Shown here: piece by piece, positions 4,291 through 10,463 of the stretch | Position numbering within the stretch: the stretch's first letter is position 1 | Layout of the letters: every line of letters begins with the position of its first letter | Origin: an uncultured Chloroflexota bacterium | GTDB taxonomy: Bacteria > Chloroflexota > Dehalococcoidia > Lucifugimonadales > UBA826 | Direction of reading: 5' to 3' | NCBI GenBank assembly: GCA_913045625.1 | Contig: CAJWPE010000001.1 | Location: 1 to 64,000 of the forward strand | DNA: 64,000 bases | The notes under the pieces: generated by a model | Databases searched by the model: none | Told to the model about the DNA's origin: nothing | What the model saw: the letters and a program-made list of their open reading frames with translations, nothing else | Translations under genes and position numbers: made by a program

Positions 4291-5448
4291 ATTCATATTT
4301 CAAATCTCTCGCTCAGAAATTTCAGGAACTATCAGAACCTTGATATCAGTTTACCCGCTAAAGTCACACTTTTAATAGGAAATAATGGTCAGGGAAAAAG
4401 TAATTTTCTTGAAGCTATTTATATGCTTTCTGTAGCAAAATCATACAGAGGAAATACTGAAAGAGACCTCATTACAGAAGGATCTGTAAATGGCTTGTCA
4501 TATTCTAAAATTGCTTGTGATATTCAACTCGAGGAAAAAAGTACAAAACTAGAAATACACTATCAATGTGAGCCTTTTGATAACAAAGATGGTTTTATAG
4601 CACAAAAATTTATAAAAATTAATGGAATTCCTAAACGAGCTAGTGATTTTGTAGGTAATTTAAATTCTGTTTTATTTTCAGTTGCTGAATTAGATTTAGT
4701 GTTCGGCACACCTAGCTCTCGAAGAAGATATTTAAATATTTTAATTTCTCAAATTGATAAAACTTATTTAAAAAATCTATTAGATTTTCAAAAGATCAAC
4801 TCTCAACGAAATAGTCTTCTAAAATTAATTAGAGAAGGAAACTCTCAAGATAATGAACTCTCATATTGGGACTCACAATCTGCTAAATTAGCAACTGATC
4901 TAATAATCAAAAGAGTTGAGATATTAGAAAATTTATCCAATTTATCTAATCCTATACATAAAGAAATGAGCAATTTAAAAGAAAATATGTTTTGTTCATA
5001 TCTACCGAGTACTAGTGAAATGTATCCGACGAATCCTGAACAATGTTTCGATTTCATATGTTCAAAATTGATTTCAAATAGATCAAGAGATATATCATCT
5101 GGGACAACTTCAATTGGTCCACATAGAGATGACTTTCAAATTTTCATTAATAATTTAGATTCACATAGATTTTCTTCTAGAGGACAAGCTAGAACTGCAG
5201 TGTTAGCATTAAAATTTGCAGAAGCAGAAATACTAAAGCAATCAAGAAACACTACACCTATCTTATTACTAGACGATTTACTTTCCGAACTTGATTTAGA
5301 AAGAAGGGAACAAATTTTAGATATGACAAAAAAGTTTGATCAGTCAATAATTACTACTGCAGAACCTGAAATTATTGGTGCAGAATTTAAAAATCAATCA
5401 AACCTTTTAGAAATTAAAAATGGTGAAATTACAGAGAAAAACAAATGA
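4291..5448 (+). CDS. recF: DNA replication/repair protein RecF with probable ATT start codon
   Basis: The listed ORF (4423) omits the Walker A. The same frame upstream reads (M)HISNLSLRNFRNYQNLDISLPAKVTLLIGNNGQGKSNFLEAIYMLS. No ATG/GTG/TTG lies between the in-frame TAA at 4273 and the conserved N-terminus; AAGGA SD at 4278-4282. Confidence 0.9.
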   Translation: MHISNLSLRNFRNYQNLDISLPAKVTLLIGNNGQGKSNFLEAIYMLSVAKSYRGNTERDLITEGSVNGLSYSKIACDIQLEEKSTKLEIHYQCEPFDNKDGFIAQKFIKINGIPKRASDFVGNLNSVLFSVAELDLVFGTPSSRRRYLNILISQIDKTYLKNLLDFQKINSQRNSLLKLIREGNSQDNELSYWDSQSAKLATDLIIKRVEILENLSNLSNPIHKEMSNLKENMFCSYLPSTSEMYPTNPEQCFDFICSKLISNRSRDISSGTTSIGPHRDDFQIFINNLDSHRFSSRGQARTAVLALKFAEAEILKQSRNTTPILLLDDLLSELDLERREQILDMTKKFDQSIITTAEPEIIGAEFKNQSNLLEIKNGEITEKNK

Positions 5449-9294: not shown

Positions 9295-9705
9295 CTAAAC
9301 GATTTGATATTCCACTTGAGAAACATTCGCGTCAAAATCCACCCAAAAAAAGTTTACGACTGGATTTTCATCATTCTCTAAAGACACCAAGACATAATAA
9401 AAATCTAGCCACCCAGATTCTTGAGCCATTCTCACATCAGTGTCAGAAGGGTAAGCAGGAGTGTGTGTATGGGAATGATAAAAGGCTATAAAAGACAAAC
9501 CTAAACTATCAGAATCTCTTTCAGCTACCATTTGCTCTTTTGGATCCATAACATACCTGTATGGAGAAGGTGTTAGATTTTTAATTCTATAAATTTTTGA
9601 GACTTGTTCATCTAAACCAGATAATATTCCACAACACTCATTTGGATTCTCTTCTCTTGAATGAGAAATCATGTCATCAACTAGTTTTTGAGTAATCGTA
9701 ATCAT
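9295..9705 (-). CDS. JAMM/MPN (Mov34) family metalloprotease
   Basis: NECCGILSG and YHSHTHTPAYPSDTDVRMA (HxHx7Sx2D JAMM signature). Confidence 0.9.
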   Translation of the reverse strand: MITITQKLVDDMISHSREENPNECCGILSGLDEQVSKIYRIKNLTPSPYRYVMDPKEQMVAERDSDSLGLSFIAFYHSHTHTPAYPSDTDVRMAQESGWLDFYYVLVSLENDENPVVNFFWVDFDANVSQVEYQIV

Positions 9706-9718
9706 TAATCAATACCAA

Positions 9719-9853
9719 CTAAAACTTAAATAATTGCTTGAATATAGCAATTATTCTATTAAAAAACCCATCTTTTTTATTTAGACGGTTCTCATTACAC
9801 TCAACACACGTACAAGCAGGAGGATGATCATAGTGCCAATTTGATCTAGTCAT
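9719..9853 (-). CDS. 44-aa Cys-rich small protein MTRSNWHYDHPPACTCVECNENRLNKKDGFFNRIIAIFKQLFKF (not in the ORF track)
   Basis: ATG overlaps the trmL stop region by 8 nt (ATGACTAG), same strand, HPPxCTCxxC motif; stop lies 14 nt before the JAMM gene start. Confidence 0.6.
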   Translation of the reverse strand: MTRSNWHYDHPPACTCVECNENRLNKKDGFFNRIIAIFKQLFKF

Positions 9854-10343
9854 AATATTCTCCGTCATTTTTATCTCCGGAAACTATACTGCCTCCAAAA
9901 TCATTTTGACGCCAAGCCTCATACGCTATTATAGACACTGCGTTACCTAAATTCATACTTCTGTTTGCAGGAGTCATGGGAATATAAAGTTTAAATTCAT
10001 CTTCTACTAAACCTAAAATTTCCTGCGGCAACCCTACAGATTCAGGACCAAAAACAAAAGAATCTCCGGGCAAATATTTTATCTGATCATATTTAGTTCC
10101 TGCTTTAGAAGAAGTCATAAACATTCTCCCAGAAAATTTATTCCTATATTCTTCAAAGGAATCATACATAAAAACAGTCGCTAAATCTGAATAATCTAGT
10201 GCTGCTCTTCTAAGCTTCTTTGCGGTCATTTCAAAACCTGTAGGTTTAATGATGTGTAAATCCGAACCAGTATTAGCACAAAGCCTAATAATGTTTCCAG
10301 TATTATTGGGAATTTCAGGATGAAATAGAACTAAGTGAAAAAT
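9846..10343 (-). CDS. trmL: tRNA (cytidine(34)-2'-O)-methyltransferase (SPOUT) with probable ATT start codon
   Basis: Extending the listed ORF upstream in frame gives (M)FHLVLFHPEIPNNTGNIIRLCANTGSDLHIIKPTGFEMTAKKLRRAALDY. No ATG/GTG/TTG before the in-frame TAG; AGAGGTGATC SD just upstream of ATT. Confidence 0.9.
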   Translation of the reverse strand: MFHLVLFHPEIPNNTGNIIRLCANTGSDLHIIKPTGFEMTAKKLRRAALDYSDLATVFMYDSFEEYRNKFSGRMFMTSSKAGTKYDQIKYLPGDSFVFGPESVGLPQEILGLVEDEFKLYIPMTPANRSMNLGNAVSIIAYEAWRQNDFGGSIVSGDKNDGEYYD

Positions 10344-10463
10344 CTGATCACCTCTCTAAATTAATTTTATTAACCTATGACAAATCTACCTGTGTTGTGG
10401 CACAATAGCTACCTATGCAACTGTTCAACTGGAATAGTTGCAAGAATTCTAGGAGGAATAATA

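Follow-up and report, generated by a model that had tools for sequence, protein, structure and literature searches.

Where does translation of a trmL-like gene begin when the conserved first part of its reading frame holds none of the usual start codons? The gene lies in the window, i.e., the whole 64,000-nt stretch of DNA analysed here (bases 1-64000 of the 148-kb contig C1), which comes from a genome (G000) of 1.42 Mb in 96 contigs with 33-36% GC in the sampled stretches. The ORF listed for this gene (9846-10229) opens at an internal methionine, which is codon 39 (Met39) if counted from an ATT triplet at position 10343. The preliminary description took this ATT for the actual start and pointed to a conserved N-terminus encoded upstream of the listed ORF, with no canonical start before an in-frame TAG. 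The minus-strand reading agrees on each of these points. After the TAG (10358-10356) come AGAGGTGATCAG and then the ATT (10343-10341), i.e., TAG AGA GGT GAT CAG ATT TTT CAC TTA GTT CTA TTT CAT CCT GAA, the frame continuing with ATT CCC AAT AAT ACT GGA AAC; no in-frame ATG, GTG or TTG is present between this TAG and Met39.

The trmL-like gene and its ATT start

The encoded protein belongs to the SpoU/SPOUT methylases, passing the cut-off of PF00588 (29.7 bits) with 102.1 bits, residues 2-141 being aligned to positions 2-142 of the 142-position profile. Its best matches among solved structures are TrmL proteins, and like the TrmL/YibK tRNA (Nm34) methyltransferases it aligns over the whole length from residue 2. 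It differs from them in scoring below the curated NCBIfam TrmL equivalog cut-offs (TIGR00185, 158.4 vs 190.6 bits; NF007683, 164.2 vs 282 bits), so that its exact tRNA target is uncertified, and for this reason we designate it as TrmL-like. The TrmL profile aligns from residue 2 of the protein at profile position 2, and the same residue pairs with residue 2 of TrmL chain 4kdz. As both alignments begin at residue 2, the ATT occupies the position of Met1. A small gene on the same strand downstream of trmL (window 9295-9705) is weakly similar to desampylases (JAMM-type), below the curated cut-off.

The extended Shine-Dalgarno (SD) sequence GAGGTGATC precedes the ATT, with 7 nt between GAGG and the codon. 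The 16S tail of the genus is TGGATCACCTCCTTT (intact in both genus members where it was located), and GAGGTGATC therefore pairs with it over 9 nt. At -15.5 kcal/mol, this SD ranks second among 482 scored gene starts, only one of the 481 canonical genes being as strong, which supports the strong anti-SD complement at normal spacing noted in the preliminary description. A scan for long perfect SD words returned mostly intragenic positions; at gene starts, it returned trmL and gdpD (ATT) among several ATG genes. SD-anchored codon counts made without gene calls were discarded as too noisy, SD-like words being present inside genes.

Coordinates of the trmL-like start region and of further ATT starts (plain positions refer to the window; otherwise genome, contig and position are given)
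Feature	Position	Strand	Basis or remark
trmL-like coding sequence (165 aa + stop), read from ATT	9846..10343	(-)	frame reading and family alignment
ATT start codon, trmL-like gene	10341..10343	(-)	aligns with TrmL Met1; kept in G002 and G001
Extended SD GAGGTGATC	10346..10354	(-)	pairs with the 16S 3' tail over 9 nt without mismatch
In-frame stop TAG closing the frame upstream of ATT	10356..10358	(-)	sequence reading; in G002 and G001, a stop 4 codons upstream of ATT
Internal ATG (Met39), start according to the standard ORF finder	10227..10229	(-)	SD only -3.7 kcal/mol
recF ATT start	4291..4293	(+)	coding sequence 4291-5448; conserved in the family
gdpD ATT start	G000:C17:17244		TGGAGGTGAAGC ATT CAC GTA ATT GCA CAT AGA GGA
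Phosphatidylinositol-phosphate-synthase-like (PIPS-like) gene, ATT start	G000:C17:5796		stop immediately before ATT in G000 and G002
Small membrane ORF (66 residues), ATT start	G000:C3:9690		ATT in 3/3 species

The start region is built alike in the three genomes compared within the genus, i.e., G000 and those of two other species (G001, G002). Each has the ATT, an SD containing GAGGTGAT and, four or five codons upstream, an in-frame stop (TAG, TGA and TGA), and the SD energies across the three species are -15.5, -14.7 and -13.2 kcal/mol. The DNA further upstream diverges. An ATG at this position in same-species homologues had been named as an observation that would speak against the ATT start; within the genus, both other species have ATT instead.

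Translation could in principle begin at a canonical codon of another frame lying over the SD and enter the trmL frame through a shift or reinitiation. Out-of-frame canonical codons do overlap the SD in all three species (GTG in G000, ATG in G002, GTG in G001). However, these codons differ in place, their mini-ORFs close after 2-6 codons and they share no slippery site, and this variation between species together with the early closure is evidence against a common frameshift. Reinitiation finds no support in the gene order either: the next gene upstream, an SDR gene on the plus strand from ~10464, lies in divergent orientation, and no coding sequence upstream is therefore available to pass on ribosomes by coupling. 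We consider such a detour highly improbable.

A truncated protein starting at Met39 (window 10229) is scarcely credible. Met39 is the first ATG, GTG or TTG in the frame, and the ATG is kept at this position in 3/3 species, but the 38 residues that would be lost carry the conserved PEIPNNTGNIIRLCANTG block, which aligns with the solved TrmL structures. Furthermore, codons 2-39 change far less at nonsynonymous than at synonymous sites (dN 0.059, dS 1.17, dN/dS ~0.05 for G000 vs G001; dN 0.011, dS 0.294 for G000 vs G002), as is expected if they are translated and under strong purifying selection, and the SD energy before Met39 is -3.7 kcal/mol vs -15.5 kcal/mol before the ATT. An error of sequencing or assembly at the start codon, for which the 96 contigs of G000 and its estimated contamination of 7.5% might be invoked and which the preliminary description already doubted, is refuted by the agreement of three genomes of different species, in each of which trmL and recF are separated by 4.4 kb.

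Outside the genus, the trmL-like gene has ATG at the same position (G015, another genus of the family; L015), and other relatives have GTG or ATG one codon later or, apparently, a start farther upstream. Because these relatives use canonical starts, the ATT arose within the genus and, judged from the three species compared, is an innovation at genus level.

Further AUH starts in the genome and in the order

In the preliminary description, recF was put forward as a second independent AUU start, and it was proposed that AUU initiation recurs in this lineage. We searched for AUH (AUU, AUC or AUA) starts by scanning for coding signal in 568 kb, or 40% of the genome (~487 evaluable genes), in addition to a first scan of 288 kb. 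Close orthologues in G001 or G002 link contigs C1, C3, C14 and C17 to the genus, whereas C2, which carries infC, was assigned to it by a 68% match to G015, in a genome with 7.5% estimated contamination. Seven AUH starts were found in the scanned 568 kb (about 1.4% of the evaluable genes), which confirms the recurrence: trmL, recF, gdpD, the PIPS-like gene and the small membrane ORF start with ATT, infC and larB with ATA. For this sample, the number is a lower bound, since the scan misses AUH starts with a nearby canonical codon; extrapolated very roughly, the whole genome would contain ~17. Among 51 orthologue trios aligned over the block common to the three genomes, trmL and recF are the only genes whose conserved coding sequence extends upstream beyond the first canonical start common to the three; ligA, which was also flagged, proved to be a mismatched pairing. 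As AUH starts are rare and conserved, they do not point to a general relaxation of start choice. A peptidyl-prolyl isomerase frame of G002 (C52:46092-46475) contains an in-frame TGA in a conserved block (GFYD*VRFHRV) and is either a pseudogene or a sequence error.

Four of the ATT starts (trmL, gdpD, the PIPS-like gene and the membrane ORF) are specific to the genus. In gdpD, the SD GGAGGTGA has -15.2 kcal/mol and its TGA doubles as the in-frame stop; the ATT is also present in G002, and the gene was not found in G001. The PIPS-like gene has ATT in 3/3 species of the genus and, in those other genera whose start was readable, ATG. The SDs of these four genes are stronger than those of canonical genes (p=0.002), and their likely functions have no obvious common theme. 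As a control, the same scan was applied to 394 kb of G015 (372 evaluable genes), the infC stretch being included on purpose. It flagged infC and a release factor 2-like gene but not larB, for which a separate reading gave the ATA start; no genus-specific ATT start was found among the 372 genes. The preliminary description had asked for an excess of ATT starts. Their recurrence within G000 is clear, but 4/487 vs 0/372 is not a statistically significant difference, and the excess over the related genus is suggestive only. Note that the coding signal upstream of the first ATG of the release factor 2-like gene (G015:C4:188394-189425) fits the known programmed frameshift.

The remaining three genes have a longer history. 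The start-aligned codon of recF is ATT or ATA in 16/16 genomes of the family and AUH in 33/56 genomes of the order outside it, the rest having, with one exception, ATG, GTG or TTG at this position (loci compared: window 4291-4293; L017-L034, L056-L071, L117-L156). The codon class has thus switched during evolution. recF is real and independent evidence of AUU use, as was claimed, but not of a second recent event, its ATT being old in the family and in much of the order. No relevant paper on an AUU/ATT start of recF turned up in a literature search. A second recF-like gene of G000 (C56:2472-3569, TTG start) was excluded from this analysis, as it most resembles family f33 of the order and its contig is a probable contaminant.

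For infC, all 30 order genomes have AUH at the start-aligned codon (ATA in 25, ATC in four, ATT in one), mostly behind a purine-rich SD and with no conserved canonical start (G000:C2:10330 (L049), L087-L116). Similarly, larB, a gene of the nickel pincer cofactor, has AUA or AUC behind an SD in 29/30 order genomes (L267-L296, L199-L230), and in 14 of the 30 no canonical codon is present between the AUH codon and the upstream stop; ATA is found in 3/3 species of the genus. By these counts, all of which are alignment-based, the AUH starts of the three genes are ancient, those of infC and larB nearly order-wide and that of recF in part of the order.

Initiation at AUU and its possible control

On the sequence evidence, the trmL-like gene is very probably translated from the AUU at 10343 by ordinary initiator tRNA-fMet, with the extended SD compensating for the codon; it forms part of a small group of conserved genes with AUH starts. 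The initiator tRNA (anticodon CAU) would read AUU as a near-cognate codon, with two Watson-Crick pairs and a third-position mismatch. The long GAGGUGAUC:GAUCACCUC helix between SD and anti-SD, 7 nt from GAGG to the codon, would keep the mRNA on the 30S subunit and so make up for the weak AUU. The expected product is the full-length TrmL-like protein with a presumed N-terminal fMet. Initiator-type tRNA-Met genes with a CAU anticodon are complete in relatives of the family, and a partial match lies at a contig end in G000.

By analogy with cvfC1 of Staphylococcus aureus, AUU initiation at trmL is probably held low and sensitive to IF3; output of the TrmL-like protein would then be reduced and would rise under IF3 shortage. 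The IF3 of G000 has no unusual look and offers no direct hint of such sensitivity. This regulatory part has one serious competitor, according to which the AUU is real but originated through drift, the genome being small and AT-rich, and was rescued through a stronger SD, expression being normal and free of regulation by IF3. Starts weakening to GUG or UUG are known to tend toward SD compensation (PMC5622118), and the stronger SDs of the four genus-specific ATT genes, as well as the missing theme in their functions, fit such a course. Against it, wherever one of these genes was found within the genus its start is ATT, although a single mutation would restore ATG; the weight of this single-codon retention is weak, however, as 68% of the conserved internal Ile ATT codons are also ATT in the three species. 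We lean away from drift and rescue, but only somewhat.

Low, IF3-sensitive initiation at trmL, which we prefer, has precedents. In S. aureus, cvfC1 (AUU) and ccpN (AUA) have an extended SD and reach ~10% of the AUG output in poor medium, as established by ribosome profiling and reporters (PMC13009471). They resemble trmL in the near-cognate AUH start, the strong start-proximal SD pairing and the conservation across related species; they are other genes, and initiation was shown experimentally there, whereas the trmL-like case is known from sequence. The infC gene starts with AUU in E. coli, ATC in Streptomyces and AUA in S. aureus (PMC5472188, PMC13009471), and in the order studied here, too, its AUH start is conserved over a wide group (AUA in 25/30). 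However, infC encodes IF3 and regulates itself, a route of feedback on codon choice that is closed to a TrmL-like protein. A conserved non-canonical start outside infC is also known from Streptomyces sigR, which has GTC rather than the AUU of trmL. IF3 represses the starts of infC and sigR, repression of the latter having been shown via infC alleles (PMC5472188). In published reconstructions, 1/61,358 ancestral AUG starts turned into AUU (PMC5622118).

An AUU start with an extended SD is therefore of an already known kind; the sequence comparisons support trmL as a further case, in a lineage that has AUH starts in good number, some of them ancient. Such starts mostly escape notice, as gene finders are as a rule restricted to ATG, GTG and TTG; both trmL and recF are cut short in the standard ORF list. 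With seven AUH starts in 40% of one small genome, three of them ancient, one can predict which genes of this order are likely to carry misannotated starts. The same genes offer a natural test of the trade-off between SD strength and codon strength and of whether IF3 controls genes beyond infC. A speculative and rather unlikely extension is that the AUH-started genes form an IF3-tuned regulon, in which infC (AUA) acts as the sensor of free IF3 and this signal also determines how strongly the others are expressed. If so, IF3 would tune recF (DNA repair), larB, the TrmL-like tRNA methylase, gdpD and the PIPS-like phospholipid enzyme, and initiation stringency would serve as a means of control that a whole bacterial order has retained and this genus has expanded.
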